This document shows positions 3,844-56,292 of a stretch of 64,000 nt of DNA, one piece after another. Below the pieces are notes generated by a model that was not told where the DNA came from, searched no databases, and saw only the letters and a program-made list of their open reading frames with translations. Source of the stretch: Mangifera indica (taxonomy: Eukaryota; Streptophyta; Magnoliopsida; Sapindales; Anacardiaceae); assembly GCF_011075055.1 (NCBI RefSeq), contig NC_058155.1:1107373-1171372 (forward strand), given 5' to 3'. The translations under genes were made by a program, and so were the position numbers. Within the stretch, counting starts at the first letter, position 1. Each line of letters opens with the position of its first letter.

Positions 3844-4343
3844 NNNNNNNNNNNNNNNNNNNNNNNNNNNNNNNNNNNNNNNNNNNNNNNNNNNNNNNNN
3901 NNNNNNNNNNNNNNNNNNNNNNNNNNNNNNNNNNNNNNNNNNNNNNNNNNNNNNNNNNNNNNNNNNNNNNNNNNNNNNNNNNNNNNNNNNNNNNNNNNNN
4001 NNNNNNNNNNNNNNNNNNNNNNNNNNNNNNNNNNNNNNNNNNNNNNNNNNNNNNNNNNNNNNNNNNNNNNNNNNNNNNNNNNNNNNNNNNNNNNNNNNNN
4101 NNNNNNNNNNNNNNNNNNNNNNNNNNNNNNNNNNNNNNNNNNNNNNNNNNNNNNNNNNNNNNNNNNNNNNNNNNNNNNNNNNNNNNNNNNNNNNNNNNNN
4201 NNNNNNNNNNNNNNNNNNNNNNNNNNNNNNNNNNNNNNNNNNNNNNNNNNNNNNNNNNNNNNNNNNNNNNNNNNNNNNNNNNNNNNNNNNNNNNNNNNNN
4301 NNNNNNNNNNNNNNNNNNNNNNNNNNNNNNNNNNNNNNNNNNN
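3844..4343. other. Assembly gap (500 N)
   Basis: Exactly 500 undetermined bases, a round length typical of a placeholder. The left side is Ulp1-type MULE sequence and the right side Ty3/gypsy pol, so at least one element junction is hidden. Reading frames crossing it are meaningless. Confidence 1.
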
Positions 4344-22250: not shown

Positions 22251-23269
22251 ATTTATGGTGTCAAAATCATATTGAGTACAACGAAATCAATAAACAAGAA
22301 TTTAACACATACATGCATATTATATCATTGTCCTAGGGTGTTAATGGGAGTCTTACTAGTGTTGGTGGCTTCTCAACTTTATCTAGTGTGATTTTAAGAA
22401 AAACCAGTCCCGATCCAAATATAGGATGTTGCCTTTGATATCCACATGAGATGTTGGGTGATAGAGATTATGGATAGAGTCTTTATAGTCTACTATACCT
22501 TATAAACAGACCGTGTGAATATGTGTTAAAAATGACAAAAAGGCCATAAAGATTGAAAATATGTTCATCTACATAAAAGATGAGAAACCATGCATGACTA
22601 TTCATACGAACCTTATCATATCACCAGAAATTTATGATTATCTAGATTTTTAGATATATGATAAAATTGTTAGATAAGGTCAATTCGAGATAATGAATGA
22701 TCATTTATATGTCATGCACAGTCATTCATCATACTTGTCACTAATCCAATTTTCAACCTATCTTTTCTAGCTTAGATAAAGTCAATACTTTAACATTCCA
22801 TTCCAACACATCCTTTTCTGGGTTATATTTTGGCCCTTCAAGTAGACATAGTTGAACTTTAGTCCAATTATTATATGAGACTCAAAACAAAAAATTTAGA
22901 TACTAAACTCGATTGACCTCATACAACCTAAGAATTCTAAAACCTAGATATACTCTTATTCTGTGTGACCTATAGGATCTTTATCAGGTTGGTAATGAAC
23001 AGAATCGTATTGAATCTACAATCTAACAACCATCTATACATAGACCAAGATTGGTGTCTACCAAGACATCATGACCACCCAAGTGACAAAGTTTTAGAGA
23101 TTGAATTTTACCTATCAATAATAAGTTATCATACAATTTGATCATTTTATCAAAGAATATTTTTTCGAGATTGAGGCATATAATTAGTGTTTGTTTTAGG
23201 GAATCCTCAATATACATTGATTGACATCTGTATCAATAATCGAAAGGTATTAGATTGAACATTGACTTA
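22251..23269 (-). other. Likely LTR/3' sequence of a minus-strand gypsy element, part 1
   Basis: Non-coding, less AT-rich than its left neighbour, and continued at 25413 after the solo LTR insertion. Together with 25413-26748 it lies downstream of the minus-strand gypsy integrase, where the 3' LTR would be expected. The outer border of that LTR cannot be located. Confidence 0.35.
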
Positions 23270-23274
23270 ATCCT

Positions 23275-25407: not shown

Positions 25408-25412
25408 ATCCT

Positions 25413-32600: not shown

Positions 32601-33287
32601 CTAGTACCACGCCCAATTATCTCTTTGGTGAGAATATCCTGAAGAAGGAAAAAGGTAGGATAGATGAGTACAACACAATTTAGATCAGTAGACATTTGGC
32701 TAACAGATAATAATTTATGAGTGAGAAAAGGAATGAGTAAAGTGTTATGTAATGATATTGCAAGTGACAAAGTCACAGTGCCTACTTCTGTGATAGAAGA
32801 TATGACTCTATTAGCATTAGCAATTATAGTACGTCTTGGTGGTGAAGTTGTTGAAAAATCAGTGGCATCATAGGTCATATGGTTGGTGGCCCCCGAGTCA
32901 AGTATCCAATCATTGCTATCAATAGCTTTATGCGAAAGATTGTTACCTGAATATGAAATAAGTACAACTCCTTGTGATGATTCAACAAGTGGTGTGAAAG
33001 AGAGTTGGGGCTCTGTTGTCACCACCGCAGCCTTGCCCTCAGTTTCAGCCTTGTCATGACGTTTTCGAGTCTGGAGTTCATGCCACCAATCTGGATAGCC
33101 ATGTAGTTTGAAGCAATTTTCATGGGTATGCTTTGAATTACCATAATGAGAGCACTTGGTTCCATCAGAAGTGATTCGTGACTTAGAGGTTATACCAGAT
33201 TTTCTATTACTGAAAGAAAGAGAGCCTGTAGAGGATGAAGTAGATTGTCCAGATTTACTACTCTTGGAGACTAGAACAACCCTAGAG
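29630..33287 (-). pseudogene. Ty1/copia gag-pol, 5'-truncated
   Basis: Minus strand, in order: end of gag with a zinc knuckle CSHYGNSKHTHENC (second Cys changed to Tyr) at about 33150; protease with LDSGATNHM at about 32900; integrase with RRLGH, HSDVWG, VIFVDDCTRM and LRSENGGEY (D to E); reverse transcriptase with TLVSLPEGKRTIGCK at about 31030 and YVDD at about 30570-30581; RNase H with ALSSAEAKFRGMA at about 29970, ending YAPT. Only a limited number of stops and frameshifts break the frame, so it is younger than the other retroelements here. Most of gag, the 5' LTR and the primer site are missing beyond 33287. Confidence 0.9.
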
Positions 33288-33889
33288 TTTCATTATTGTT
33301 ACCAATGATCATAACCATTTATCTAATAACAATATAGTGTATGTAGGTTTTTCTTAGGAAACTAAACTACTAAAAAAACTCATTTTTTATTATTTTTGTT
33401 ATCTACGCTAACTATATGGACACTCTCTATTACATCTACATAATAACATAGATGTAATTTTCCTACATCACCATTCTTTTCTTTTTCATTTTTGTTTATT
33501 AATCTTCCTTGATTTGGATGTTGATTAAAATAAAAGAAAAATAGAAGAAAAAATTATGTATAGTAATTTACAAGAGCGATGATTGATGTAAGTGTAGAAT
33601 CAAATAATTGATGTAAGATTATACACACAAACGTGCACGTGCGCACACATGCACACACATACACAAAAAAAAAAAAAAAACTATGTACTCATAGTTTTAA
33701 GTATACAGTTAGGTACACAAATAATGTATCATCTTGTGATTGAATGATTTGTATTAAGGATAAAATAACATCAAATCTTATGATGACATATCATCTATAT
33801 ATATTCAATTGTGTACTCAAAACAACATGCATATAACATTGCTTAAATATATATAATGACGTTAAGCTTGGATTCTTACAAAATTGTCT
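33288..33889. other. AT-rich intergenic DNA with CA repeat and small MITE
   Basis: No gene. Around 33620-33680 is a (CA)n tract followed by A17. At 33694-33823 a small element has inverted ends (GTTTTAAGTATACA and, reversed, GTTTTGAGTACACA). A related copy lies inverted at about 21968-22111. Confidence 0.55.
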
Positions 33890-34433: not shown

Positions 34434-36104
34434 GTAGATGTCAAAGGGTCGAGTTGGGCCAACCTTGACTTGGCTAATCATGTCAACGAGTTCTGCTTGG
34501 CGAAGGCCCACTATAATACTGGTCTTTTCGGTCGAGTTGGCTTATTAGCTTTTGAAGGTCTATAACATAACCTACAATGTAGTGAGTCATGTTATGTCAA
34601 GCCCTAATTAGGTTGCTTGTGGGCTTGTGGCAGGCTGACTGGTTTTTCAATAGAAAAATATTTTTTTAAAAAAATAACTTATTACATTTTACTAATTTTT
34701 ATTCACTTTCAAAATAATATAATCAAGGAGGTCATACATTGAAAAAAAGGTGAGCTAACCCTCCAAATTATATTTTTTATTTATTTTCAAATGACGTAAA
34801 ATCATTTGTGTATTTTTATTACTATATTTGTATTCTAATTAAAGGAAACTCTAAATTTTTACTCAAAAACCTCACTTTCTAATAACTCCAAACTTTCTTC
34901 AATCTCTCAATCTCAAGCTCTTTCATTCAAATTTTAATTTACTAATTTAGTTTCTATTTTGTTTTTACATTTCGTTAGTACTTTAATTATATCTACCAGT
35001 CGTTATCTCGCATGTGTGTACTCAATATATAAATCACTCTCTCATTATCCCCAATTTGTTGACTCTCCTCATCGCTTCAAATCCACCAAACTCTTAAAAC
35101 TTAACTTCATAAATTCACCTTTAAGAGCCATGAACCTAGAGTTTCATGACATCCTTAGTCACAGTTATGTGAACATCATCAATGACGTAACAGTGGCAAG
35201 GGTAGCATCTCCATCGTCTTCAGACATGGAGATTTCAATGTATTACATGGAGAAAATATTGAGTTACTGCTTTAAAAATAAGTACCTTTTAGAAGAAGCT
35301 TTGATACACTCTTTGTACCATGATGAGGCATCATATCAACTGTTGGAGTTTATTGACAACGTTGTGTTAGGACTTTCTTTCCTAATTATGTCTTCTTGGC
35401 TTACCTGATACTTGATCTGGGACAACTATTGCTCATACACTCTGCCAATATAAGCACCAAGAAACTCGAGCACATGGTCGTCAAGAAGTGTCACTTCTCA
35501 TTTTGCTTTATCTACTACTCCACTTGAATTTCTCAAACCTAATCATCTTTGTAGTTATGTATGTGAATGAGAGGTCTAATTACACCCTTATTTATTCTTA
35601 CAAGGTCTCTCTTATAGTATTTACATTGAACTCATTCCTTCTCATTTGAGCTTACAAAAATGAATTCATCTTAAATACAAAATTATATTAAGTTTTTGTA
35701 TAGAAAAGAAAGTTTTTGTAAACAAAATTATATACAAAATTATATTTGAGCTTACAAGGTCTCTCTTATAGAATAACTATTTTATTTAAAATATATTAAG
35801 TTTTTTTCATTATCAAAGTATTCAAAAGTAAAAAAAAGGGATAGAAAAACAAAATTATAAAATAAATGGAAACTCAGTTATTAGACATAATTAAAAATTG
35901 ATTGAGAAAGTTTGAGACTGAGAGATTGAAGAAAGTGCAGAGAGATAAAAATTGGGAAATTATGTTTTGGGAAGGGGGAAGAATTTATATAGAAAAGAAA
36001 AAAGGAACCAATAGCCATTGCAATTTTTTTTTTCATGGCTTGCTATAAGGGGGGCTTGGGCCAAGCCACAGGACAACGCGCCTGCTTCCCCCTGCCATGC
36101 CTAG
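34434..36104 (+). mobile_element. Non-autonomous hAT-type element carrying an RNase III fragment (1671 bp)
   Basis: TCTAAACC at 34426-34433 is repeated at 36105-36112. The ends GTAGATGTCAAAGGG and, reversed, CTAGGCATGGCAGGGG are imperfect hAT-like inverted repeats. Long subterminal stretches are also inverted: 'actttcttcaatctctcaat' near 34893 recurs in reverse near 35915. The leader resembles that of the hAT at 37698-40634. Instead of transposase it holds an RNase III-like coding fragment, so it would need a partner transposase to move. Confidence 0.8.
35109..35505 (+). pseudogene. Captured RNase III-like gene fragment
   Basis: An open frame (34959-35408, 149 codons) contains, from about residue 88, MEISMYYMEKILSYCFKN, then KYLLEEALIHSLYHDEASYQ and LLEFIDNVVLGLS: the N-terminal part of an RNase III catalytic domain. 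After a single-base frameshift near 35385-35395 the domain continues in another frame as NYVFLAY, LDLGQLLLIHSANISTKKLE and VVKK. The signature corresponding to ERLEFLGDAVL reads QLLEFIDNVVL, so the catalytic Gly-Asp appears as Asp-Asn. No double-stranded RNA-binding domain follows. It looks like a piece of a plant RNase III-like (RTL-type) gene picked up by the hAT element, now broken. Confidence 0.78.
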
Positions 36105-37065: not shown

Positions 37066-37391
37066 TATGTCACATAGAAGATGTCAATTTGAGTTCTTTA
37101 CTGATGGATGGGGGGTGGGGAAGTGCAAGAAAAAAATATTTTATTTTTTTCATTTTCCACCCCACAATTATAAAAACCTTTAAATCACTCTCATTCCTCA
37201 CACAGCATTCTCATATCATTCTACATCTACTCTTACTCTCAACTTTTAAACTCTCTCCAATTCATTAATTTTCTCTCAGTTCATTTTTTATTGTCTCATT
37301 TCTTCTATTTTTATTTATATAATATTTACTTAAATTATAACAACCTTATTATAGTATTTTATATCTTAGTTTCTTTTTACAAATATCCCTA

Positions 37392-37697
37392 ATGGGTTCT
37401 CAAAATTTTAGAGTTAGAGAATCATGTTCTTTCTAATTTGATGTTGATGACTGTTATGTTAATTTTATTGCAATGACCCAAAAGATTGACACATTTGATC
37501 TATTTTTATTCTCGCAGCCTAAAAATCTAGATGTTACAATTCGAAGCATGATTGGAACTACATCAAGTCAAACATAAATGAGTAACAACCCAATAAGAAC
37601 ATGGAACAAAAGGAAAATTGATCTAGTATGACAACATTTTATTAAATTGAAACAGCCTTTGAAGATTGTATAAGGTGAAGAGACATGTGAGATATAC
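37392..37697 (+). pseudogene. Outer hAT transposase, segment 1 (start and BED finger)
   Basis: Starts MGSQNFRVRESCSF at 37392, after a leader with a TATA-like 'tataaaaacc' near 37170. It reaches a BED zinc-finger start: NKRKIDLV.QHFIKLKQ and then TCEIY. It is interrupted by the second hAT and then the MULE. The same frame resumes at 50129 with KTYSVSIDIENRTTTIR.HLEK, completing the BED finger. Three in-frame stops lie in this segment. Confidence 0.75.
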
Positions 37698-40634
37698 TAA
37701 ACATGCCCTTAGGCCGGGACTTAGGCTCCCATAGTGATGGGCCTTGGTGTCGAGCCGACCTATGTAATTTTTAAGGCCTAAGGTTTGACCATATATATAT
37801 AAAGTCAAGTCAGGCCAAGCCTCAACAAATTTTTTAAAAGATTTTAAATTAAAAAATTTAAACATAAATTATTTTCAATTATTAAATGAGGATAATACCT
37901 CGAATATTTTATTTACAATCCCTCATTTGTAGTGGAAGAATACTATGATTATATGATAAAAAATATTATAAGTTTATAATATAATACAAATAAATTAACT
38001 TACATACTATATAATTACAAACATAAAAAAATATATATATATATCATACTATTTATCTATTAGTCCTTAACGTTCAAATTTCTAAATTTTTCAAAGATAT
38101 CTTTTGCCACCCGATTCTATAATTTTAAATCAGTTTTGACCCAATCCTTCATATATATTATCACCTCAATCATGTTTGAGTGTAAATTGGATTGTATATC
38201 ATCCAACATGCATCTATCTGCATTAAAAGCGGATTTCGATACTACAGTTGACATCGAAGATGTTAATAGATCTCAGGCATGGCAGCAAGCACATGAAAAG
38301 TTTCTACCCTGTCTTTCCACCATGTTAAAACATCTAGTTTTTCAGCATTATATTTTTGAATAATTTTTGAATAACGATCAATATTGATATAATTATAAAA
38401 TTAACCATAATTTGTACTTTAATTGGTAGGCTACTTATCTTTGTGCAAAAGAGATCATATACATGACTTTTTTTGTCTGAACTACTAAAACCTACCTCAG
38501 GTATAGAACTTTATCCAGTTCTTTCATATTTTTATTTATAAATATTATACATTTCAAGTAAAAAATCTTGAACATATTGAACATAATTAACATTGCTATT
38601 AATTGACAAATTTTTATTAATAACTTCAAATAAATTTTGCAATCCATTAGTTTTTGCCCTAAGATATAAAACAGTAGTTGTAGAATAAAATAAAGGAATT
38701 TCACTCCAATATTTTTAAAATTTTTGCTTCATCTGCTTATATATATTCTAGAAAGTATGATGAGAGTCATAAAACCCATGGTCTTTAAAAATGTCATTTA
38801 TTTCTACTATACTATATATTATTGAACAAGTAGTTAGATAATACACACCTGAGCAACGGTCTATGACTATCTTCAATGGCTCTAACAAATTCATTAGAGC
38901 TATAACTATCTCTCAATCTTGATTTCTCAAAAAAAACAAGATTTGTCAAAACTTTTGGTTGGGTATTAAAGTACTGTGTTATAGGAACTTTATACACTTC
39001 GTACGCTTTCAATATGAGATATATTGAATTTCACGTAGTTTTAATATCTACTTTTAATTTTTTTCTTCTCAACCACATTGATTTACATAATTGATTATAT
39101 GCTTGTACCCATGATTGGGATGATGAAATGTATGCAATGACATGTCTAATTACTTGTGTATGTTTTTAGCCAAGCTTAAGCATTCTTGAACTGTTAAATT
39201 AATAACATAACATACACATCTAATATGAAATAATTTTCCATTAAATGGAGGAGATAAATGATTATACATATATTCAATAACTTTATCATTATTTTTGGCA
39301 TTATTAAAGGTAATTGAAAAAAAAAATTATTAATTTTATATTCCTCAAGAATATTTGCTAATGCACAATAAAATGTATGACCATCATGCGGATATTCCAA
39401 ATTTCTAAATGCAATAATTTTTTTCCATAACTGTCAATCAGAATTAATATAATGGGTAGTTGTACATAAGTACCCTATATCTTGATTTGTAACAGTTCAT
39501 AAATCAAAAGTTATTGAAATAACACTATTAAAATTACTTAATTCTCTAATAACTTTTAATTTCATTAATTTATAATTTTTTAGGATGTCTGGCCTAAGAG
39601 TTGACCTAGGAATTATTCTAAATGTCGGTTGAATATTATTTTGCATCATCTATTCTAAAATTTCATCTTTTTCACAACTATAAGGTTGATTAGAAGCAAC
39701 TACATGCCTAGCCATGTAGTCCCGCATCTTCATTTGATCATACATAAGTTGACATTTCTCCCATATGTCTAGAATCCCTCGAATCTCTTGTTGAATTGAC
39801 ATCGAGACTAATAGATCATGATCACGTGAATACAATTTGTTTTTGTCCTTTGAGCTCATGTCAAATTTTTTTGCAGTAATCAGTAATGTATTAGCGAAAA
39901 TGTCTTGTGCCACTCATACTTGCATATGTTAAATAAGAATCATAATGTTTACATACTACTTGACAAATTAATTTTCTTTTGATCATTTCCTTTATTTAAT
40001 CAAAGTACTCCCACACCATTGATGTTTGTTTTCTTTTTCTCTTTGTTGAATACGAACTTGTGCTTATACCATTTCACCTGTTGGTGCTTCACTTATTCCA
40101 CCTTGTGTATCATCAATAATATCATCAACGTCAGCATGATTACATTCAAATGGATTAAATTCATTTGACATTGGATCCATTTGTAATATTTTGTAATGAT
40201 AAAATTGAAATAAAAACAAAATTATAAATACAAAGAATTATTATTTGTGAATTCAAACAATTTCTTAAAGAGAGTTGATAAGAGTAAATGAGATTAAGAA
40301 TATAATGAAAGAATTGAGATTGAGAGATTAAGAGATTTGTAAATAACACTGGAAATGGAGAAGATTTGAATTGGTTTATATAAAAGAAAATAAAACAATT
40401 AAAGACTTCTGCTTGTGTGGCAGAAGCAACTAAGGCTTTTACCTTTTTTTTTTTTTAATTTTTCAATAGTGTTGGGCCAACCCATGGGTCTAATATTAAA
40501 ACTCACAACTTGATCCAGAAGGCCCATGGGTCAAGCTAGGCTTGACACGCTACTGTACTGAGCTCTTTTGGGTCAAACCTGAATTCTAAGCTTCAAGTCG
40601 AGTCTCCATTTGACCTAGCCTAATTGACATGTCT
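37698..40634 (-). mobile_element. Second (inner) hAT transposon, 2.94 kb
   Basis: Flanked by AGATATAC (37690-37697) and AGATATAA (40635-40642), 7/8 identical. Termini TAAACATGCCCTTAGG and, reversed, AGACATGTCAATTAGG. It carries a decayed transposase on the minus strand. It lies within the 5' target duplication of the adjacent MULE, so it inserted after the MULE. Confidence 0.82.
38100..40180 (-). pseudogene. hAT transposase pseudogene (inner hAT)
   Basis: Read from ATG at 40180: MDPMSNEFNPFECNHADVDD, then the BED region KRKQTSMVWEYFD, then MKMRDYMARHVVASNQPYS. Next come ITFDLWTVTNQDIGYLCTTT and RNLEYPHDGHTFYCALANIL, the core around the first catalytic Asp; then KVPITQYFNTQP; finally the C-terminal hATC dimerisation region near 38140-38290, MSTVVSKSAFNADRCMLDDI. 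Multiple frameshifts and stops. The order and spacing are those of an Ac-like plant transposase. Confidence 0.88.
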
Positions 40635-41314
40635 AGATATAAAAAAGGGAAATTAATTAATTAGCCCAAACATAGGTAAAAAATAAATTTGCCGAAACCT
40701 TTATAACGTAAACAAAAATGTCTTATTTCCTTATGAAGACAAAATGCTTGTTTAGAAAAAAAGAAGAAAATAATGCATTTTCCTTTCCCAACCACACAAA
40801 AACACGTATTTGAGCACACGAATTCATAAACCCACTGAATGATTTTCTCAAGCAAAATTTGTGAATTTTTCAATGACCAAAATGGATGAAAAGATTAGTA
40901 AAACAATCTATGTCATGTTTTTATGCATTTTAGTATAAGATTTAGCCTATTGGATGCAGTATTTAGGTGTTTAGACTTAAGGTTTTGATTTGAAACATTT
41001 GATGAAACTGCTTGATTTGTTAGTAATTTGGCTTAATTTTCTTAGGGTTTTTGTGTTAAAGTAGGTGTAGAGTTGATTAGTGATGAAATGGGATTTGAAA
41101 TACAAAGTTTGGTAGCTGAAATCTCACCACAAGAATTTGTGTAGTGAGATTTCTTGGAGACGGGGAGGTATTATGCAGTTTTTAAACTTTCTAGACCAAA
41201 AGAATTCGTGTGGTTGGGGGCCAAAGTGTGAGTTTTTAAATAGTGACACATGTGTACAATGTGTGATAAGGCAAAAGTGTAAATTTGCAAAATAGTTTGA
41301 CACACAAATTCATT

Positions 41315-41337
41315 GGGGGGGGGGGGGGGGGGGGGGG
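41315..41337. repeat. Poly(G) run, 23 G
   Basis: Twenty-three consecutive G in the MULE's left subterminal region. It is the second such run in the window, and its exact length is sensitive to sequencing error. Confidence 0.9.
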
Positions 41338-41595
41338 AATTACAATTTTTTAAAGTTTCCCCACCACACAAATCAAATCACATGGTGGGTGTTGGAGGCA
41401 GAATGATATTTTCAAATTATAGGTAATTTTTGATTTTTTTCATTTAAGAGGGAAAATTGAAACTTCTTTATTTTAGGGCTTTTTTATGTGTAGAATTCGA
41501 ATTTGGGATCTGTTTTTCTAAATAATGCATCTATATTAAGAATTGACTCATTTTTAATATAAAATTGATATAATTGCAATTTAGTTTTTTTATAG

Positions 41596-42344
41596 AGACC
41601 TCCACAAAAGAGAAAAATGGATGATAGAAAGGATAAAATGAGATTTCCTATCGAAAAGTACTTTAAGGCTCAAGTTACTATGCGTAAATATAGAGATGTA
41701 GGAGCCATGATTAAGAAAATATTAACAAAGAGACAGTTAAAAATGTTTCAGCGTACTTACTTTGGGCACTTTCTCAACCTTAAAGATAGCTAATTTGATA
41801 GAGTGTTAGTATACTCTTTCATCCTAGAAGAGGTAAACAAGGCAAACTCGACGATGAGTCATGGTTTAGAGTTCACGGGGTTAACGTTAGGCTTAGCCTG
41901 TATGAGTTTGCCATTATTACAAGCCTTCAATTTAGTCGATTGTTAGAAATTAACATGTATCTTCTATCGAAGGCCACAAAAAGGATCCAACATACATATT
42001 TTCACGGGTATAAGTCAGTTATGTACACTGAGCTAAGTTGTGTTTTCTAATAGAGGCCTTGGAAGGAGGATGACAGTGATATAGTAAAGTTGGCCCTATT
42101 GTATTATCTTCATATGAGGTTATTAGAGAGTGATTTTAAGGAAAACAATCCTCCAAAAGGTATTACAATTGGCTAATCATCTTGATGGATTCAATGCATA
42201 CTCGTGGGGAGTACGAGTGTGACAGATGACATATTAATCGATCTATGACAATATCACTTGAATTTGTGTGAAGTCTAGCCCTGTAAAGAATAAGGAGAAT
42301 GTTATGAAACAATATGGTATCATGGGGTTTCCGTTAGCTTTCCA
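41596..42344 (+). pseudogene. DUF1985 domain exon of the MULE-borne gene
   Basis: Follows TTTATAG and ends TTTCCAG|GTAATT. Translation gives MFQRTYFGHFLNLKDS, then VLVYSFILEEVNKA. After frame shifts it gives LDGFNAYSWGVRV and KQYGIMGFPLAFQ, the characteristic order of DUF1985 (plant transposon-borne domain). Frameshifts and stops mean it is not functional. The C48 protease part of the same gene follows at 46033. Confidence 0.78.
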
Positions 42345-42617
42345 GGTAATTGTATCATTTATTAATTAAAATAAAAATTTGTGATTAAAATAAAACGATT
42401 TAATATGATTATAAGTTTTTAGAGTAACACATTTAAGTTAAAATTACAATTTTGAATATACAAGATGTTAGACACACTACATCGATAGATGGATATCACG
42501 CCAATTTTAGGATCTTTACACATGTTGAGGTGACATATGAAAGACATCTCGGGATGGGATGTTATCCTAACTATCTTCACCAGAGATGTAGTAAATAATA
42601 ATTTATTATTGATTAAA

Positions 42618-43351
42618 GGCAAAAGGACTTATTCCCACCCGAAGTATACTCTTTTCACAAATTCTCACATCTTAACTTTGAAAATCCCATTTACCTACCT
42701 ATGAATAGTTCACTTTGTTAGTTTTAAAGGCAAAATTATCATTTTATATGTAATATTAAAAATAAACTTGAATTTTATTTTCTTTTCCTCTCCAAACTCT
42801 AAAAATTAACCATTTCCCCCTATAAGCCAAGTTTTAAAAAAATGACATTTCCCCTATAAGGTTTCGCTACCAAACTCTGGTGCCATCTTTAGTATCATTG
42901 CCAATGGTCTCTCCCTTTTGAACCTTTCTCTTCTTCTGGTGATCTTTCTCCTCTCACTTGGATGTCTGATCGATATCGAATGAAATCGAGGAAACAAAGA
43001 GTTTCATCTTTTCAATGAAACTCTTTGTCTCCATGACTTTATTCAATGTTAATCGGGAGTCCAGGTGAGAGAAAAGAGATTATCAAAGGGAAAGGAAGTG
43101 TCGAGAGGGAGAGACCATTGACAAAGACACCAAAGTTTGAAAATTGAACCCTCAAGAGGGAATATTATTTTTTAAAACTTGACCTATGAGGGAAATGGTT
43201 AGTTTTTAGGGTTTATGAGAGAAAAAAAAATTTAAGGGGTTAGGGTTTCATTAATTTTAACCACTCATGGGTGGACAAATGAGATTTTCAAAGTTAAGGG
43301 GTGGGAACTTAAGAAAAGAGGATACTTTAGGTCGAAAATAGTCTTTTGGCC
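42618..43351. mobile_element. Mutator-type MITE nested in the MULE (734 bp)
   Basis: TTGATTAAA at 42609-42617 is repeated exactly at 43352-43360. Long imperfect inverted repeats (about 100 bp) begin GGCAAAAGGACTTATTCCC and, reversed, GGCCAAAAGACTATTTTCG. Both arms contain 'cttaactttgaaaatc'. It is related to the MITE at 54712-55351. No coding capacity. Confidence 0.88.
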
Positions 43352-43960
43352 TTGATTAAAATATGAATAAGGTAACAAATTTACTTAAACAAAATTTACA
43401 AGATAATATTAATTTTCAACTAGTTTTAACTCTGGTTGAAAAAGTCACAAACTAGTATGACAATATCGTTTGATACATAAGAATCGCAAATATACAATCT
43501 TCTTCATTGACATCCTCCTCTTCCTTGTCAAGAGAAGCATAATCTATTCCTCTTAACATTGCTTCTTTGATTATGGCTCCTACTCATGTTGAGGCTCTTG
43601 TTCAGTCTCTAGCCATAAAGCCCACTCTAGTCAATACCCTTGTTGTGACCCCCTGTCATTGAGCGCATATCACCAGAGTCCCTTGTTATGCCCTTCACCT
43701 CTGAGCGCTTTTCAAGCAATCCCTACATAACTACACAAGATTTCTCTATGCATTCCTTTGATGTTGCATTGGCTTTATAGAAAAATATTATCTTGGATTG
43801 GATGACTCGTTTGGAGGATAGAATGACACGTATGGATGATACACTGACCCATCTCCACACAAATATTGTTGTGCAGGTTAAAAAGTTAATGAATATTTTT
43901 TGGACACTTTAATTTAATATACAAACATATAAACCTTACAATAATTCATATGTTGTTATA

Positions 43961-44910
43961 GTGTCTTCATGACGATGATAACGGACTATATAGAGAGGGG
44001 GTCTCATATTCACTTTTCTAGCCACACTCAAGGTAAATACTAAACTGTTAAAGTATTTTAGAGTTGATATTTGAAAAATACTTTGTTTACTTGTTAACTC
44101 AAGATTGTTGTTATTGTTACAATGTCCTTTTTTTATGAGGGACTTTTGTTCTGACAATCAAGGTAAGTACAATGTCGACTAAATACATTATAATATTTTT
44201 TAAACACTAGGATTAACTAATATATTTATAAATGTTGATATAGTTACAAGATGTTGGTGATGAGGGATTATCGCATAAAGGTTCCCTATTATCACCTTCT
44301 TTGATAATTGAGGTAAGTACAACATCGTCTGTATATATTGTATTTGAATTCAACATTCGATTACCTATTAACTTGTAATTGTCAATGTTGTGGCAGTATC
44401 CTAGGTTGATGCAAACCCATCGAAGGGGATCCAATATTGACATCTGTTCTAACTGTCGAGGTATGTACAATGTCAATTGTATATATTATAATATTTGTCA
44501 TACACTTCGATTAACCAACATATTTATAAATGTTAATATTGTTACAAGATATTGCTGATGAGGGATCATCCTATAAAAGTTCCCTATTATCACTTTCCTT
44601 GATGGTTGAGGTAAGTACAACTCCATTTGTATATGTTACATTTGAATTCATCATTCAATTACCTATTAACTTGTAATTTTTGATACTGTGGCAGTGTTTT
44701 AGGGTTGATAAGGCTCCATCGAGGGGGGATCCCACTTTAACATCTAATCCGATAAGCAAGGTATGTATAACATTGATTGTATACATTGTAATATTTGTTA
44801 AACACTTCAATTAAACAATATATTTATAAATTTTAATATTGTAATAGGATGTTGGTGATGAGAGATCATTCTATGAAGGTTCTCCATTATCACTTTCCTT
44901 GATGGTTGAG
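43961..44910 (+). repeat. Tandem array of alternating small exons in the Ulp1-type gene
   Basis: Units A (62 nt: 44251-44312, 44549-44610, 44849-44910) alternate with units B (44397-44460, 64 nt; 44695-44760, 66 nt). Each is preceded by an AG-type acceptor (ACAAG, GGCAG) and followed by GAG|GTAAGT- or GAG|GTATGT-like donors. The period is about 298 bp, so exon plus intron pairs were duplicated. More diverged B-like (about 43961-44031) and A-like (about 44121-44161) units precede them. Copy 1 at the window's left edge retains the B-A part, again with a 62-nt A exon (124-185). Confidence 0.8.
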
Positions 44911-46032
44911 GTAAGTATTCGGTGATTTGACTAGTTTCTAAGTGAATCATATCCTGTCATTCATATTTTGTCTGTTGTTATTACAAGATCTCTGGTTGTT
45001 CTATCCTAACACCATAAGCAAGGGTAAAAAAGTGATTGATGTTGCCTCTTAGGGTGATGAGATGATTGACACTACCTCTCAAGAGGACAAGGTGGTTCAA
45101 ATCCCATCATAGAGGGAGGTAACTAAGGTATACAAATTTCATAAAGGTTTTCATTCTATTTCAATAAATGAAAAGTCTATTATTTATTTATTATTTATAT
45201 GGTCTAACACTAGTTGGTCTGAAAGTTTGATGTAGTTGATCTTACCTCTCTTGAGAATTCCTCGACTATGACTTCTACCTTATAAAAGGTATGTAAATAG
45301 ATTTGGAAACCTCGCGAGTTAATATAATTTTAAATGACATATTATTATTTTTTAGATAGTATTTGCATGTACTTCATGGTCGACTTGTAAGAAAAGGACT
45401 GCTTGTTCATAGCCCATACATAAACCCATTGAAACCAAGGGTCCAACAGTTGAAGCCTATTGTGTGGTTATCGATTATTGAATGGGAGCAAAATTTCAAG
45501 AAATGGTATGATGAACCTAACCCCATTTAAGAAAATAGAGGTGTACAACATAGGGATAAGGACTAAAATTTCTTTTTAGGGTACAATTATGGACACATCA
45601 GGATTATTGTTTGACGAGATGGGTTTACTTGATCCATTAATTTAGTTTTATAATATAGAATGTCGTTGAAATGTGTGATCATGTTATATTATTTGTTTTA
45701 ATAGCACATGGATTCTTTTTTGGGATTAGTACATCTGCGACAACATGACTCTGTAGAAGAGGTCTGTCAAAACTGGACAATAGTCATGGTTTGTTTTGTT
45801 GCACATCTCCTGCATGAGTATGTTGCATGTACAAAAGATTAAGATAATTACAAGTTTCCTCCACTTTTCATGAGATTGGTTAATATAGATTACCCCCCTC
45901 CCCAACTTATATTTGAAACCTTAGAGTGTGGTGGATGAGGTACAAATTCGATAATCAATTACATAACAAGGATTAATTAATTAATAACCATTCAAGTAAG
46001 GTATCTTAAATGTATTTTGTCAGTGTGTGCAG

Positions 46033-46340
46033 ATTTTTATCCCAATAAACTTCGACAATACATATTGGGTAGTAGGTATCATGGATTTTAAGGAGTGGAT
46101 GATCACAATTTATGACTCGTTATAGAATTTCACTATTGACATGATGATGTTTACTATGAAGATGTTGGGGTATACATCTATGATACCACACTTACTAAGA
46201 GTGACATCATTTTGGTCTAACACGAGGCATACACCATGAGACAATCTATTTGCATTGCATAACACAATGAATATACTGCAATAGACACCCTTATCAGATG
46301 ATTATGGTGTGTTCATATTACTCTACATTGAGTGTCTAGC
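46033..46340 (+). pseudogene. Ulp1-like (C48) protease exon, MULE copy 2
   Basis: Begins after GTGTGCAG. It reads [20 protein letters not shown] and then MITIYDSL followed by a stop; further on, PLSDDYGVFILLYIECLAFG. The catalytic His before Trp is Tyr here, and the nucleophile Cys (normally DCG) is also Tyr (DYG). It shares the latter change with copy 1 (3540-3843). The region 45190-46032 upstream contains further degenerate linker exons matching 2740-3539. Confidence 0.8.
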
Positions 46341-46744
46341 ATTTGGCCGACCTTTATCTTTTGAGACCGAGGATTTGATACACCTATGCACACGTTTAAC
46401 CATACAATTATTTTTTTAGGATATTAAGTGACTTTTATGTGATATGCATTTTCTATTTATATATGTTTATGAATTCATTTATATGTTATATGCATTAGTA
46501 TGTCCATATGTTTATGTATATACTAACATGCGTTTGTCCTTTATATAGTTATTATAACTGATTAGTCCAGTCAACAACAAATGACGAAAAATGGTTATAT
46601 GAAATCATTGACATATATAACAAATACAATCACAAATTTTATAGATGTTTTAACAAGTATAATCACAAGTTTTATAGATAAAATTAACAAGTATAATCAC
46701 AAATTTTATATCTAAATGAACAAGTACAATCACAAATGCAATTA

Positions 46745-49405
46745 TCTTCAGCCTATCTTTTTAGTTACTGAACTTGATGGTACGAATCTAGATATCAAAA
46801 CAGGACTCTTGCAATTCTATTTCGTATGTCCAGGTTTCTGACATTAACTACAAATTTGTTGTTTAATAAGCTCACCTTGTAAAAGACATCTATTTTTATT
46901 CGTTAGATAACCTATTCGATGATGATGGATGAATGGTAGATGGATAACATGTGCCTCTTCTACATGTAACCACTTTAATTGATACCTTAATGGATTGATA
47001 GCCCCATATAAACTACACAGTAAAATACGATGTTGTAGTAGAGATGCACCCATTAAACATAAGTGGTGAGCTTCATATATCTTGCTATGACGATGGCATA
47101 TGTGCAGGGAATCTGTGATAGTTGAAATTTTTAACATGTACATGTCCATTATGTAAGGTCAACCAACCCATCATATTGGCCACTACCCAAAACCTTGTAT
47201 CGTTAAAATGTAATAGGATGCACCTCCAAGTTTGAAGACTTTCGCACATGTTTAGCAATCTTCTCCTTCATCTAAGGTGTTATCGAATTGGTGCAAGCAT
47301 CTGTAATTAATATAAATATCAACACATATGGTAAGTGATAATTAAGTATAAGTATACGCAAACATATTGATAACATGTTATATTATTGCATATGCACTTA
47401 CTTGCATGATTTCTCTTTTTATAAAACCATCATTGTAATTTACCTACGATAAATTCGGTAAACATAGTAATAGGCAAACCCCGAGTGTGTCTAACAAGTG
47501 CATTGAATAACTCGATGATATTAGTAATCATTATATTGTACCTATGGCCTAGGAAATATGCCTTTGGCCATCAATCATAACCTAATTCACATACGTACAC
47601 TGCTGCATTAGGGTGCGTATAGGACAATGACTTTATTATCTCTCAAAATTCATACTTTGTATATGCCTTAGTTGTTTTCCAATACATCCACGTGACTTTT
47701 GCATTCTTCTTATACTTGGATCGCATGTTATAGTGAAGGTGATAGCAACAACAGTCGTGGTGCACACCTAAGAAGACTTCAGTCATTGCAGAGAAGATAC
47801 TAACATGTTGATTTGAAATTATTACTAAATGAGGTACTTCACCCAAACAATCATTAAACTTTATTAAAAACTAACACCATGTGTTATGATCTTCCATAGG
47901 GCCAATGCCAAAAACCAATAGATATATCTTATTATTACCATCTAATACAACAATGATAAATAATTGGCCTAGATATCTAACTTTTAAGAAGGTAGTGTCA
48001 ATAGAAAATTACTAGGTGAATATGTTGTTGGAATGCACAAATACTATAATCCAACGCTATGTAAAAATATTTAAATCATTACTGCTCATTAGTTAGTGTA
48101 TGCATCACAGTCCCCAGATTACAACATAATAAATTGTAATAATACTTTGATAGCAACACAAACAACTCTTTTGGTGTGCCCCTTCATGATTAAAGTGGCT
48201 AATTTCTCGCTTGTCATACTTGTGCATATAATATATCAATTTTATATCGGTCGATGATGTCCACAATGATCTCCTTAGGTCAATATACATGATCAACCAA
48301 TATAAATCTTGTCCTCAAAATTTACCCTAAAGCTTGGGCCTTAGCTTGACTATGATGAGATATTATCTTATCTTTAGGACATGTGTATTGGTTATTGAAA
48401 TGACTTAGTTCAAAATTGTCACTTTCTCCTACTCGATTTGCCCGTGCATGCCAATTACATTGTTGATCATGACATTTAACCTTTTATCTGATTATGTCTA
48501 ACTTGTGCACTTTAAACTGATATCTCTTTTTAAGAGTATCTCAAGTTGCTACATCAATAGCATGTTGTTTACTCGGAAATAATATACTAATTTTTGGAAA
48601 ATCATAATTTCTTTACGCTCCTTGGCCTATGAATATAGATGTGGATAACTGGTCAAGAAATTTGGGTAACTAATGAAATGTATCAATACGAACATTCTTA
48701 ACATCAAGATTTGTATGCAAGAAACTACTTGTATCTCCACTATTGTAATTAACATGTGTCTTCTCCTCGAACTTCAATTCCTTGATAGGAATATCATGTA
48801 TAACATTCCCATCAATTTCACTCTAATCTAGAAATTTCTTTTTGTTGCCATGAATAAATTCTTCTACATTATATAATACATCAACTTGAACATCATTTAA
48901 ATATGTGAAGTCTTCCTCAGAAAATTCGTGTTTCGAATTGATCTTCATATTTTGAATCTCTACTAAACTAATCTCATGATCTTGTGGATAACTACTCAGT
49001 TTACTACTTTGTAAACCCTTATCTACTTGTTGAACCTCATAACTATCATCATTAAGTGTAGTTTTTACAAAAACTAAAACGCATTCTTTAAAGAGGTTAG
49101 ATAGACCATTAAGAACTTCAACATCTTCATCATTTGAAATTTTAATAGGGATGTCATTGTCAAGATGTCTTGGTCTCATGTTTATCTTAATATTGTTTAC
49201 CTTTCGATCTTTGTTACACTTTTCACTTACCATTTGGATTAATTCCACGAATGTTATGTGCTCTAGAATTTTAATCAATTTCCTATTATCTCTGACATAT
49301 TTCACTACATTGTCATCTTTTTCTATCCATTCCCCTTGTATCTAATTAAAGCATATCCCACCATTTAGATCAATCCTATAATAACCACTATTGATAACCA
49401 AATTT
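46745..49405 (-). pseudogene. MuDR-type MULE transposase pseudogene
   Basis: Minus strand. N-terminal region INSGYYRIDLNGGICF and then YVRDNRKLIKILEH (longest frame 48823-49305); the segment PKEIIVDIIDRYKIDI and KELFVLLSKYYYNL (about 48290-48110); catalytic core LVIISNQHVSIFSAMTEVFL then HHDCCCYHL (about 47830-47740) and WKTTKAYTKYEF; C-terminal zinc knuckle CS.CQKPGHTK.NC (about 46850-46810). These are the ordered hallmarks of plant MuDR transposases. There are in-frame stops in nearly every segment. Confidence 0.88.
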
Positions 49406-50128
49406 ATTTGAAAATAACATATGAAACTATACAAATATAAATAAAATGACAAAAAATACTATTTAAATATTTGAGTTACATTATTTTAATAAGTTCAAGT
49501 TTCATTATTTTATTTCTATTGCACGATTACGCTTATTTCATAATTCTACTACATATTGTAACTGTTAATATACTCTAAATAATTTGATAATAATTTTATA
49601 AAATATTACTTTTCCCCTATATCATCAAATAACATTTTACCCCAAAGTATTATTTAATATCTTTAACATTTTTCATTGTAAAATATCATTTTACCCCTTA
49701 CTATTATAATCGCAAAATACCTCTTATATTTTTCTACCATTTTAATTTTTACACACAATTCTAAGTTATTATATAAGACACTATATATAGTTACATTATT
49801 AATAAAAGTAATAACAATTAGAGTTATAGTACGTATAAATACATTGATATTACAAATTTTTTTCTCTCGCTTGAAATTACGGTCACTAACTTTTTTCTCT
49901 CTCTTAAAATCTCTCTCAGATAATGAGTAAAATTATGTGTTAAAGGATAAAAGAATGGTTATGATTTATATAGAATAAAGGAAAAATAGTTTTGGTATTT
50001 TTTGGATATTTAAGGCAATTTTGTTTAACTCCTTCAAAATCTTAGTATTTTCGTTTAAGCCAAAATTATGGGTAATTTTTTTATAACCCATGAAATATGG
50101 GTAATTTAATTAATATCCCTATACAAAA

Positions 50129-50766
50129 CTTATAGTGTTTCTATCGACATTGAGAATAGGACAACTACGATAAGGTGACATCTAGAGAAGAATTATGTCA
50201 AATCCATCGAACAAGGTTCAATAAATATACAAACTCAAAGTCAACTTAATTTTAATATGCATTCTTCAACTCTTTGCCATGTACAAATTGCATAAGATGA
50301 AGTAGCAAAATAATTTATAGTTACTACATATTCTCCAATTTTTATCAAAAAATGTTTTTTCACTTAAATGATTAGGAGCACTTTTTGTCTACAATATTAG
50401 TCTATTAGTAGGAATACAACTAGACAGTCTTAAAAATTTATAACAAATTAAGTTTAAAGCTTAAAAAAGAATTTGAAACTTTTCAAAATATATCTATTGC
50501 ACTTACTTTCGATATTTTGTCTTTTAGATCAAAAATGATTTTTTTTTCAAGTGTTACAAACTAACAATACATTACTTGGATAATAATGAGTATTTCCAAC
50601 GAAAATTAATACGTTTTACATTGTTGTATTCTAAACATAATGTTGAAATTATTTATGTAATGGTTATTGAAGTTTTAAATTGTTATGTAATAATTGAGAG
50701 AGTTGTTGCTCTAACATTTGACAATATAATTGCTAAAATGGTGGCTATTTCTCTTATATTGAAAAG
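50129..50766 (+). pseudogene. Outer hAT transposase, segment 2
   Basis: Resumes the frame left at 37697: KTYSVSIDIENRTTTIR.HLEK (end of the BED finger). It continues DEVAK.FIVTTYSPIFI, then FETFQNISIALTFDI (catalytic Asp region), then DNNEYFQRKLIRFTLLYSKH and ERVVALTFDNIIAKMVAISL. It is interrupted at 50766 by a MITE and continues in the same frame at 51405. Confidence 0.85.
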
Positions 50767-51396
50767 CTGAGGTGGCAAAACGAGGGTAACCCGCCAAAAT
50801 ATGCATATGAATTTTAGATTTTTGAACTCGGACCTATACCTGTTTTGGATCTCTACCTACGAGTAATGAATTTTTACGGGCAGGCTGGATATGCTTGTAG
50901 ATCACCTATTTTTTTCTATTCATGTTCTTATTCCTCTTCAACATCAAACTTACAACACAAATTTCATATATTTTTCCTTCTCTTGATATGAAATCAACTC
51001 ATATCCACCCTAAAATTAAAGAATTTGTTGTATTGAAAATAAATTTAAAAAATATAAGCATTAACCACTTTGTTATAAATAGTCATTTTGTGTTTAATGT
51101 TCAAATTCTTCAAATTTATAAAAAAAAAAAATTCATAATTTGAGGTAAATTTTTGTTCCTCCTCGAAATAGTTATGTACTTGAAGAAAAAAATATTAAAA
51201 TTTATGAAAAGAATGCATTAAAGTGAAAAAACAAAAGAGAAATGGTAAGAAATTAATGTTAGTAGGTAACCCACGGGTCGAGTTGTACTCGTAAGGTTGG
51301 GTATAGGTTTTAGAAATCATTACCCTATTTTTGATCTGTAACCATTTTACTAGCACCTATATCAACCCGACCTAACTTGCCCATTTGTCATATGTA
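50767..51396. mobile_element. hAT-type MITE inside the outer hAT transposase (630 bp)
   Basis: TTGAAAAG at 50759-50766 is repeated exactly at 51397-51404. The left end CTGAGGTGGCAAAACGAGG resembles the common hAT terminus; the right end, reversed, is TACATATGACAAATGGGC. The interior has 'ggtaacccgcc' and 'aacccacgggtcgagtt' and no significant coding sequence. Confidence 0.85.
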
Positions 51397-52189
51397 TTGA
51401 AAAGGAATCAATCCATATTTTTAAGGAAAATTTTCCATTAGAGATGTGTTTGCTACATAATCAATTTAATTGTTAAAATAGGTTTAGAAGATATAAAGGA
51501 GTGGCCCAAGTATGTGCACATGACTATCAAATTCATTGTTTGTAGCATACAGTATGGAAGAAATATGTCATTTATTGCAAATAAGAGGAGCTGCCCATCA
51601 AACTAGTAAAGTTTTGTTGCAACATGCCCATTTGGTGGAACAAAACGTTTATGATGTTGCAAAATGCTCTTCTAAATGTACACCAAATTATGAACTTCAT
51701 TAATCAGAAGAATGCCCTAGAAGATGCCAACGCCCATACATCTCTGACTGAAAAGTTTATGAAATATTTTTTTTCTATTTCTTAAATTTTTTTTATTCCA
51801 GTAATCTTCTAAGTGATAATTATTATCCTACAACTAATTTAGCATTAGATAGTTTGCTTCAAATTTGTAAAACATTTAATAGGTATAGAGATTATCTAAA
51901 CTTGTGTAAAATAATTACTAATATGGAAGAAAAATGCGATAAATATCGATTAGATATTTTATTATTATATGATTAGGTAATATTTTAGATCCTAGGTTTA
52001 GATTAAATATGTCTAGAACTATAATTACCGAAATAGGTCATCATTTAGGGTATAATTACAATTCTTATTTGTTGGACTCTTAGATGATTTGATTATGTCA
52101 AAACTAAATTTAAAGTTATTAATTTATATTTAATGAGTTAATAAAGTTTAAGCATAAAATTTTTATGATCGAAAGATGGGTAAAATTTA
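51397..52189 (+). pseudogene. Outer hAT transposase, segment 3
   Basis: Directly in frame after the MITE: RNQSIFLRKIFH.RCVCYIIN (the HxxC..H-like region) and GLEDIKEWPKYVH. Further on, YYPTTNLALDSLLQICKTFN and KIITNMEEKCDKY, then ILDPRF in a shifted frame. Stops and frameshifts occur. It ends where LTR-like DNA begins. Confidence 0.8.
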
Positions 52190-53230
52190 TGTTTCAACTT
52201 TTCAGACACAAGACTCTAGTCCTTAAATGTGGGATGCCCCTCCCCTATGGGATGACGGTTCATTTGCTTATGCCATGCTCGTCTTTACAAGTCTAAAGCT
52301 CTTGAAAATTTTTGCCAAATGAATTGGGATGTCCATCCCTATGACTGGGACGCCCATCCCTTCAAATCTAAAGTATTTCGAAATTTTAAAGGTGCAAGGC
52401 AGGATGCCCATTCGAGAAAAAGGGATGCTCATCCCTCAAGTGGTACATTTAAAAATTTGAACGTTGGATGTCTAATTCAAAGCCACCAAAGTCAAAATGT
52501 GTAAGAGGACGCTATCCCATCATGTTTTCAAGGCCAAAACACAATATCGAAACTCAATGGATACATTATCCCAACCAACAGTCATTTGAGTCATTCTAGC
52601 CATCCAAAACTATAAATTGAAGACTCTTTGAAAGGGAATAAGTTAGAGATTGCGAATGTAAAATTTTATACTCTTCTATTCTCTAAAAGCTTATAACTCA
52701 TATCATTAAGAGACACCTTGTACTTAATCTTTGTAATAGCCTTGTAAAGGAATTTTACACTCAATCTTTTTATATTCGAACAAACTTGGATAGAATCCCA
52801 TATAAACTATTGTGGCGTGCGAAATCCCAAATCAACTTGTGAATGTGGGCAAAATCCTAAAGAATTATTATAAAGAGGGGATTCTTTACTAGTGAAACTT
52901 TAAGTGAATTGCTTGAAAAATGAATGTAGGAGACTTAGAAGAGAACGCTTTTAACCACTTTAAATCTTGAGCATTTTCTTTACCTACTCTCTTTGCTTTA
53001 TGTTTTATATTTGTGTTATATGTTTTGACAATTTGTTGAATATTGTTTATATTTAATTATTTAAGTTTGTTGGTTATTAGATTTGTTTGAATATTTTGTT
53101 GAATTTATTTATTTGGTTGTGATTGATTATAAATTTGTTTAAGGAATTTTTATTTGGTTAAAAGTTTAGATAATCTCTTTCTGCTTGAGGATTATTAGTT
53201 ATTTGGGGTTTTTCATTATTTACAACAAAT
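52190..53230 (+). mobile_element. LTR-like insertion in the outer hAT (about 1 kb)
   Basis: Interrupts hAT homology between ILDPRF (about 51990) and the hATC region (about 53520). Contains variants of 'gggatgcccatccc' (52229-52450) and a GC-richer block 'gtggcgtgcgaaatccc', characteristic of plant LTRs. Possible ends are TGTTTCAAC (52190) and TTTACAACA (53227), but I find no target duplication, so the borders are approximate. Probably a solo LTR. Confidence 0.55.
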
Positions 53231-53745
53231 TGAGCAATTTTTTTTCTTATGTTAGAATAGGTATAGCGAAATGACAATCGTCATAAAAAGACCAAACATG
53301 GATTGACGAGGATGTTAATCAATTTGGATCAAGCAATTTGACATTTATGGAATTAAGTAGTAGTAATTGATGCATTAATAGCTCCAATGTGTACAAGCAT
53401 GGACCAGTTGAACTGTAGTAGTATCTTCAAATGAACTTGTTTTATATGAAGATGAAAGAGAAACGAGAAATGAAAGTACTTCAATGGTGGAACTAAAACA
53501 CAAGTTAATAACCTATCATAGTCCAAATGACATGTGACCTTTTATCTATCTTAGTTTCTACAATTGCATTCAAATTAATATTCTCAATTAGTGATCACAT
53601 TGTTTAGATGGTTGAAGTGATTTCTTGTTAGTGATAATGAATACAAGGTGATAGAAGACCACAGTACCAGTTTGAAGATCCTGAACTACTCAACTTACTC
53701 AAAGATACTAGCTTGGAATATAATGCAACGACAATCATTGATACT
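53231..53745 (+). pseudogene. Outer hAT transposase, segment 4 (hATC)
   Basis: The hATC dimerisation motif is seen near 53540-53610: LSILVSTIAFKLIFSISDHI, equivalent to the usual LSIPVSTVASESAFSTGGR. The end YQFEDPELLNLL lies near 53680. Frameshifts are present. The non-coding 3' part of the hAT follows to 54178. Confidence 0.7.
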
Positions 53746-54440
53746 ATTTAATTTATGTATTGAAAACTAATTTAATTATTAATTCCTTTATTTATTTGTA
53801 TTTTGAAAATTTTAATTTAGACACATTATATTATTTATTTCAAATCAATAATACCTACAAAGTATTAATTACAACTTGTGTTAAATTTTTATTTATATTT
53901 ATTACATACATTTAAATATAATTATTTTAAATGATAAATTGTTAAAAAAAATTACAAATGACAATTTAAAATTTAAATTAAATGATTAATATCATTAAAT
54001 TTATAAATATAATATAATTATAAAATATTTTAATTTTAATGTAAAAATATATATAATAATATAACAACCCTAGTCCTAGGCTCAACTTACATTAAGTCTA
54101 AACCAAGGACTAGTATGGGCCCTACACAGGGCTCAGACTAGTCCCTTTCTCCAAGAGCCTGAGCTCTCACAACCTTTATTTGTCACCTCGAGTGATATTT
54201 TTGTTTGGAGACTGCAGATACAAGGGTTGAAAGTTGACGAAACCTTGACCTAAGATAATTACAAGAAAAAACAAACCTTGATCTAAGATTATATTTATGG
54301 TTCATAGTTAATCAGCACAATATTGGCAAGTTGGCAATGTTGCAACACAATTGTATTTTATTTTTTTAATAAGAAACTCTACCCAAATTGAATTATATTA
54401 TGATAACGAGGAATGGTACCTTTTTTTTTTAAAATGAGAA

Positions 54441-54553
54441 ATCCATAATTGAATTGATTTGTATAAAAAATATTGCTAATCCATTAAATTGTGTTGCATA
54501 CACAATTTTATGGATTAGCAATATGTTTCTTATGGATCAATTCAATTATAGAT
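54441..54553. repeat. Foldback hairpin (two arms of about 56 bp)
   Basis: Arms 54441-54496 and 54498-54553 are inverted complements at about 48 of 56 positions ('ataattgaattgat', 'tattgctaatccat'), with almost no loop ('tgttgcatacaca' at the apex). Most likely a small foldback MITE; as RNA it would be a long hairpin. No clear target duplication. Confidence 0.8.
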
Positions 54554-54711
54554 TACAACGTTAATAATCTAATATAATCCAACTTTTGTAATATTCATTT
54601 AATAATCTCATCCTCTTTAATTCTGAATCATGTTGTTTTTAGTGATATTGACAAGCTACCGTGAGGTAAAATAACAATCTTTCAAATATTTTTGGATCAA
54701 AGTTAAATCAA

Positions 54712-55351
54712 GGTTAAAAGACTATTTGTCACCCAAGGATAGTTAAAATGATAAATTCTCACTCTTTTAAGTTTCAAAAAAACTAGATTTTTATTCGTCA
54801 TCCACTTTTATTAATGAATTCTATTAAGTGAAATAGTAAGAAAGTCATTTTGCATTAAATTTTCTATTTTCTTTTTTTTATTTTTCTCTTTATTTTATTT
54901 TCCCGCTTTTTTTTTTGTTTTCCTTTTTAAAATTTGTGTGAAAATGTTAGAGGTGTTAATGATATTTTAGAGGTCTTTTGAAAATTTAAAAAAATTTTGG
55001 GATGTTTTTAAAATTCTCATATATCTCATGATACTTTAAAAAATGATAGTTACACTCTTAAATAAATGACCAAAATATAACAATTTAAAATGGTTACAAT
55101 TTTGATATATTTTATTAGTCTAAGTGATAAATGGTTTTAAATTAGTAAGAATACAGATATAATTTAATATTTATATTAAATGTTAATGGTAATTTTATAA
55201 TTTAAATAAAATAACAAAACAGTCAATTCCAGGAAAACTACACAGATTCATTTACGAAAGTGGATGATAGGCAAGAATTTGACTTTTTAAAATTTAAAGA
55301 GGGGAAAATTGTAATTTCATCTAACCTTGGGAGGGAAATTGTTAGTTGACC
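54712..55351. mobile_element. Mutator-type MITE (640 bp)
   Basis: TTAAATCAA at 54703-54711 is repeated exactly at 55352-55360. Inverted repeats of over 100 bp start GGTTAAAAGACTATTTGTC and, reversed, GGTCAACTAACAATTTCCC, and both arms contain 'tcatccacttt'. It belongs to the same broad family as 42618-43351. No coding capacity. Confidence 0.88.
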
Positions 55352-55360
55352 TTAAATCAA

Positions 55361-56292
55361 TCCTTGAACCATGATTTATTGGTTGATAAATCCCCTATCA
55401 TAATATTCTCTTTACTATAATAAAAATTTCTTATCTAATATAAACAAATAATATTCTCTCTACCATAATAAAATTAACAATATTAATTTTAATAAATCTT
55501 ATCCTTTTATATAACACTTATACACTGTTTCTACAGATTCGTTATTGGAAGTTGGGATGATTTTTCCCATCGTCTCCACTCCACGTAATAAATAATGAAA
55601 ATGATTTGACTAAAGTTTTTGCCCTTGATTAAAGTTGCAATATATGAAAAATTCGAGTAATATGTAGAAATTTGCTTTTTGTTTTGCAAAAATTTTTTGA
55701 TAATCTCCGCAAAACGACATAGCATAGAGCCTCATAATTTGCGGTAAATTGAACGAAAGCAAATTCAAAAGCTAATTACCAAAATGGGACATCTTGTCTA
55801 CTCGCAGCTGACTTCCACGTGTTTGACATTTTCTTGAATTTTTGGCCCATAACATTTTAGTAGACATATTTTAACAACTTTTTAAAGAAGTTTATTAACA
55901 ATTTCATATATAATTAACGCATGAACATGATTGAATGTGTTCACATATAGAGAAGAATAATTTATCTTTAGATTGAACTGGACTTAATTATTTGAAGTAA
56001 CTTTTCACCCCCAAGAAAGAATACTTATTGTTATACAAGAGTGTTGCATGGTCAAAAAGTTTTACCATAAGTCAAATTTTGAGGTGCAACCTTATGCAAC
56101 CATCAATAGACAACAACAACTAAATGTTTCTTCAACACAAAGCCAACAATAGAAGTAGATCTAGACTTATATAGCTTGACATGTGATTAGCGACTAGGTT
56201 ACTCTTATTCTATAGTTTATGAAGTCGAATATTTTCTTGAAGACAAAGTTGCAATTATAATCTTATCAAAACAGAGACTTCCGCAATCTATG
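55361..56292. other. Intergenic DNA without recognisable genes
   Basis: AT-rich, with a short more balanced patch at about 55740-55830 ('cgcagctgacttccacgtg', which contains a CACGTG G-box). No reading frame with a known domain. Confidence 0.4.

Follow-up and report, generated by a model that had tools for sequence, protein, structure and literature searches.

A single degenerate hAT transposase gene on the plus strand, split into four pieces by later insertions, almost certainly underlies the repeat stack described here, which lies in an AT-rich stretch of mango DNA of 64,000 nucleotides (hereafter, the window) whose genes and elements have a flowering-plant appearance. This very high confidence applies to the explanation as a whole: an Ac-like hAT transposon (a label given by eye) would have inserted, lost its function and then, as a dead copy, been hit at three places by unrelated elements, namely an inner hAT with a ULP1-carrying MULE next to it (site a), a small hAT-type MITE (site b) and an LTR retrotransposon now down to one LTR (site c). 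Each insertion would have made the target duplication usual for its class, of 8, 9, 8 and 5 bp, respectively. We observed colinear pieces of one hAT gene, assigned the inserts to classes, placed their boundaries and found relatives without the inserts at other loci of the genome. The copy was probably dead by the time the insertions struck.

A hAT transposase gene in four pieces

Translated frame by frame, the plus strand yields a broken transposase whose four stretches are:

37084 to 37697, plus strand: outer hAT piece 1, the 5' region and the beginning of the transposase gene (coding sequence from about 37392)
50125 to 50766, plus strand: outer hAT piece 2, joined directly to piece 1 in seven relatives
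51397 to 52069, plus strand: outer hAT piece 3, the RNase-H region (sub-threshold hAT-like_RNase-H; relatives)
53216 to 54191, plus strand: outer hAT piece 4, the dimerisation domain and 3' end (Dimer_Tnp_hAT; Hermes; loci L013 and L016)

The order of the pieces is that of the original prediction, but its boundaries around the last insert moved: the third piece, drawn as 51397-52189, ends at 52069 because 52070-52189 is LTR and not hAT, and the fourth, drawn as 53231-53745, resumes at 53216/53221. The span of piece 1 is that of the relatives' matches, which run from 37084 (L030, the leftmost start of any) to 37695.

Ten frame translations were searched against Pfam, one for piece 1 and three each for pieces 2 to 4. 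Piece 4 contains the hAT C-terminal dimerisation domain (Dimer_Tnp_hAT, 1.2e-10, above cut-off) and matches the Hermes transposase in the PDB (3.6e-5); in a protein search, 0 of 102 candidates matched it at E ≤ 0.001. Piece 3 resembles hAT-like_RNase-H at 0.0031, below the curated cut-off, while pieces 1 and 2 gave no Pfam match. An Rfam search also gave no match.

The reading frame carries on across each insert. With the flanks of the first gap joined, TCEIY|KTYSVSIDIENR reads in a single frame, as proposed, but the correct block end is 50124 and not 50128: the right-hand duplication of the MULE occupies 50120-50128, and its AAAA (50125-50128) is part of the hAT frame, so that deleting to 50128 removes four bases too many and shifts the frame. 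The frame likewise runs across the LTR (NSY|LQQIEQFFF) and, as predicted and as read by eye from the frame translations, across the MITE at 50767-51396. In contrast, the claim that the first junction completes a BED finger was not confirmed, zf-BED being absent from the Pfam results for the joined 66-aa junction segment and for each half separately. The candidate finger resembles a BED finger by eye only and is degenerate, with Y at the second cysteine position. BED zinc fingers are common among hATs, though not universal. Taken without its inserts, the element measures about 2.9 kb (arithmetic only, with ends assumed at 37071 and 54191); the original prediction gave about 3.0 kb.

The inner hAT was also used as a reference within the window. 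Against it, piece 3 scored 81 (shuffle maximum 51) and piece 2 scored 92 and 65 (shuffles, 78 and 55). This control is weak because senseless pairings passed narrowly (piece 1, 56 versus 51; piece 3 with another part, 58 versus 51) and piece 4 gave no score above its own shuffles; it is superseded by the genome relatives.

Relatives without the inserts

We searched the genome (391 Mb, 241 contigs) with two queries, for both of which the window itself was counted and one copy can yield several matches. Piece 4 with its 3' flank gave at least 49 matches (40 of 64 candidates scored), and piece 1 with its 5' flank gave 28 (28 of 28 scored). Twenty-two loci, 12 from the piece 4 list and 10 from the piece 1 list, were compared with the pieces separately, and the three junctions were checked by base-level alignment with some of them.

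Junction 37697|50125, counted as closed where at most 9 locus bases separate the two matches, is closed in 7 of the 22 loci (L012, L025, L026, L028, L029, L031 and L033). The MITE junction, 50766|51397, is also closed in 7 (L012, L017, L025, L026, L027, L028 and L033), although the piece 2 match of L033 stops 16 bases short. At the LTR junction, 52069|53216-53222, five loci are closed with 9-16 locus bases (L009, L014, L017, L019 and L032), and in L025 and L026 the spacing is looser, at 21 and 63 bases. At each junction the remaining loci have one side missing or are interrupted by a gap peculiar to them; at the first junction, for example, about 700 bases separate the ends of the piece 1 and piece 2 matches of L027. 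Many of the 22 relatives are only partial hATs or contain such gaps.

All four pieces occur in order in L025 and L026, each with its own gap of about 1 kb inside piece 4, and in L012, where parts of pieces 3 and 4 are missing. The original prediction named as its failing case pieces that were not colinear with one hAT or that belonged to different hAT families. Checked on the relatives, the pieces are colinear with individual hAT copies at other loci of the genome and hence do not come from different families. L025 and L026 sit on C4 and C43 and are probably duplicates of each other; they are best counted once, since neighbouring repeats run in parallel and the two may be copies of one region. 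The same repeats recur at the same spacing on C4 (about 7.73-7.79 Mb) and C43 for the pair L021/L022 as for L025/L026, as if the two regions were duplicates or alternative haplotypes. The matched stretches of the relatives are 62-78% identical, and the empty sites are thus paralogous, not allelic. At L013 (3489-3968), a 5' stretch (37117-37223) adjoins a stretch of piece 4 (from 53417), an arrangement that suggests an internal deletion in a copy of the outer hAT.

Two elements side by side in the first gap

The first gap, 37698-50124, holds the following features:

37690 to 37697: left target duplication of the inner hAT, AGATATAC
37698 to 40634, minus strand: inner hAT pseudogene, with hAT domains and a duplication; one terminal base is ambiguous
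40647 to 50119: ULP1-bearing MULE, with the duplication TATAAAAAA (40638-40646) / TATACAAAA (50120-50128)
41581 to 46420, plus strand: ULP1-like passenger gene remnant of the MULE (DUF1985 and Peptidase_C48), broken by a MITE
42618 to 43351: MITE inside the MULE, with an exact 9-bp duplication TTGATTAAA, inverted ends and long inverted arms
46700 to 49400, minus strand: MULE transposase remnant (MULE, Transposase_mut, DBD_Tnp_Mut)

The hAT and MULE had been read as one block. They are two separate elements 12 bases apart, each with its own duplication. The inner hAT has the predicted class, with hAT-like_RNase-H (PF14372, 3.9e-7) above cut-off, Dimer_Tnp_hAT (PF05699, 3e-4) just below it, and an 8-bp duplication whose right-hand copy, AGATATAA, lies at 40635-40642. 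The MULE, whose class was also called correctly, has a transposase domain (MULE, PF10551, 1.6e-14), Transposase_mut at 3e-6 and DBD_Tnp_Mut at 6e-4, below cut-off. Its ends are inverted at 13 of 14 terminal bases within a longer degenerate inverted repeat and its 9-bp duplication agrees at 8/9, a combination that random pairs of places equal at a rate of 5e-7. The passenger gene remnant contains DUF1985 (5.2e-10) and Peptidase_C48 (1.2e-12), which makes the element ULP1-bearing.

The MITE that the MULE had been said to contain was found with its exact duplication. Three levels of nesting, outer hAT, MULE and MITE, are thus present structurally; as a succession of events at this locus they are less secure, since the MULE may have brought the MITE with it.

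The original target was AGATATACAAAA, of which the hAT duplicated AGATATAC and the MULE duplicated TATACAAAA, with 5 bp common to the 9-bp and 8-bp targets. Judged from these letters, either order of insertion would yield the present sequence. Elements of one class might preferentially land in the target duplication made by the other, an idea that we consider very improbable.

Several further features touch on the MULE. A unit of about 300 bases is present in three tandem copies at 44141-45003, and a run of 23 G lies at 41315-41337. The ULP1-MULE region occurs a second time at 3-464 and 2736-3843 (Peptidase_C48 weak, 0.0073, below cut-off), with 71-75% identity to 44724-45180 and 45205-46339. 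This further copy is split by a 2.27-kb stretch of which an inverse copy lies at 23269-25408, and the MULE at 40647-50119 represents the empty site for this insert. To the right of the stack are inverted-repeat elements at 54440-54554 and 54693-55371, part of the latter matching the end of the MITE inside the MULE.

Elsewhere in the window, minus-strand ORFs at 29637-33289 look copia-type by eye, an ORF left of the outer hAT (34938-35408) appears RNase-III-like by eye with nothing significant in Pfam, and 3844-4360 translates as X, apparently reading N.

A probable hAT-type MITE and a solo LTR

The other two inserts are:

50767 to 51396: probable hAT-type MITE, 630 bp, with the duplication TTGAAAAG (50759-50766 / 51397-51404)
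52070 to 53215: solo LTR, TG...CA, with the exact duplication TTATT (52065-52069 / 53216-53220)

The duplication of the MITE is an exact 8 bp; its ends are degenerate (7/14), and 7 of the 22 relatives span the site and lack it.

The third insert is a dispersed repeat with at least 57 matches in the genome, 40 of 440 candidates having been scored. In seven other loci that were fetched, LTR homology starts at 52066-52081 and ends at 53213-53215 in six of the seven (53249 in L008). These limits place the TG...CA ends at 52070-53215 with the exact 5-bp duplication. The original prediction was thus right about the LTR class and wrong about the bounds (about 52190-53230); a boundary of 52190-53227 is likewise wrong, since the other copies begin matching at 52066-52081. 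Pairs of LTRs flanking internal DNA were found at three other loci, L021, L022 and L023, of which the first two look like duplicates, with one pair member partial, and the last has an extra internal duplication. In the window, hAT flanks the LTR on both sides; it is therefore a solo LTR, which combines TG...CA ends, a duplication within 4-6 bp and paired LTRs elsewhere, and is presumably the product of recombination within an LTR pair. An exact 5-bp duplication is absent from all seven other copies (best, 4/5). Of the 22 relatives, 5 span the site closely and lack the solo LTR.

Outer ends of the hAT

The 7/8 match between the outer flanks, TATGTCAC/TTTGTCAC, is no better than chance: around the ends, 31 diagonals at 7/8 or better occur among 72,000 position pairs, and because such matches are frequent here it was dropped as evidence. 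The alternative ends 37071/54192, TGATATGT/TGATATTT, are likewise 7/8 and at chance level. Terminal repeats and a duplication were sought in relatives L009-L020, at the left ends of L025-L027, L030, L032 and L033, and in L013 and L016, with nothing convincing in any of these. On the right, the matches of 12 loci end at 54063 in four (L011, L012, L015 and L019), earlier in four and beyond it in four (L009, 54073; L010, 54110; L016, 54131; L013, 54159). By eye, homology in the alignment with L013 and L016 seems to extend to about 54165, so the outer hAT probably reaches at least there, with its right end at or beyond about 54160; the right end first proposed, 54178, may be close to the true one.

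Alternative explanations

We considered whether the four pieces could be remnants of several different hAT copies that stand in order by chance. Pfam recognises neither piece 1 nor piece 2, and the outer ends and outer duplication were not found, as this would allow; but the exact duplications and the open frame at the junctions, the relatives with pieces directly joined and L025, L026 and L012, which have all four pieces in order and contradict it, leave it hardly credible. One degenerate hAT gene is therefore retained. It could also be asked whether the inner hAT and the MULE came as one composite unit, lying as they do side by side with only 12 bases between. Against this, each has a duplication of proper length and the overlap fits two separate events at AGATATACAAAA, making a joint arrival extremely unlikely.

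The last insert, of 1.15 kb, could in principle be an intron of the hAT gene: a GT near 52180 could plausibly serve as donor, and the AG at 53254 is a pyrimidine-rich acceptor. We reject this reading with near certainty: the insert is a dispersed repeat, the same sequence is found as LTR pairs, it has TG...CA ends and the exact TTATT duplication, and five of the 22 relatives lack it. Two separate elements in the first gap and a solo LTR in the third thus remain the preferred reading.

Comparison with known transposons

Like other members of the hAT superfamily, the outer element has a dimerisation domain and the inner one an RNase-H-fold domain (the converse matches lie below cut-off), and the inner hAT and the MITE have 8-bp duplications; they differ in that the outer and inner hATs are both pseudogenes and the BED finger of the outer one is degenerate. 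ULP1-like genes are carried by plant MULEs such as Kaonashi/KIU of Arabidopsis and by others in melon, rice and grapevine; elements of this kind are described in PMC13317346 and, for grapevine, in PMC2528002. The MULE in the window resembles them in combining a MULE transposase with a ULP1-like gene, here on opposite strands, but is broken by stops and a MITE. The Arabidopsis group is termed non-TIR MULEs in PMC13317346, whereas the copy in the mango window has recognisable inverted ends.

Plant genomes are known for nested transposons and for solo LTRs, and here too elements lie within elements and have target duplications of their own; the stack is the same in kind, though made mostly of DNA transposons. 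It offers a clear, ordinary example of layered transposon build-up in such genomes and a nested-insertion case worked out at base level, whose boundaries were checked by comparison with relatives in this genome that lack the inserts. Its use is as a test case for annotation, and it opens no new question: the stack is ordinary nested-transposon biology, unusually well verified.
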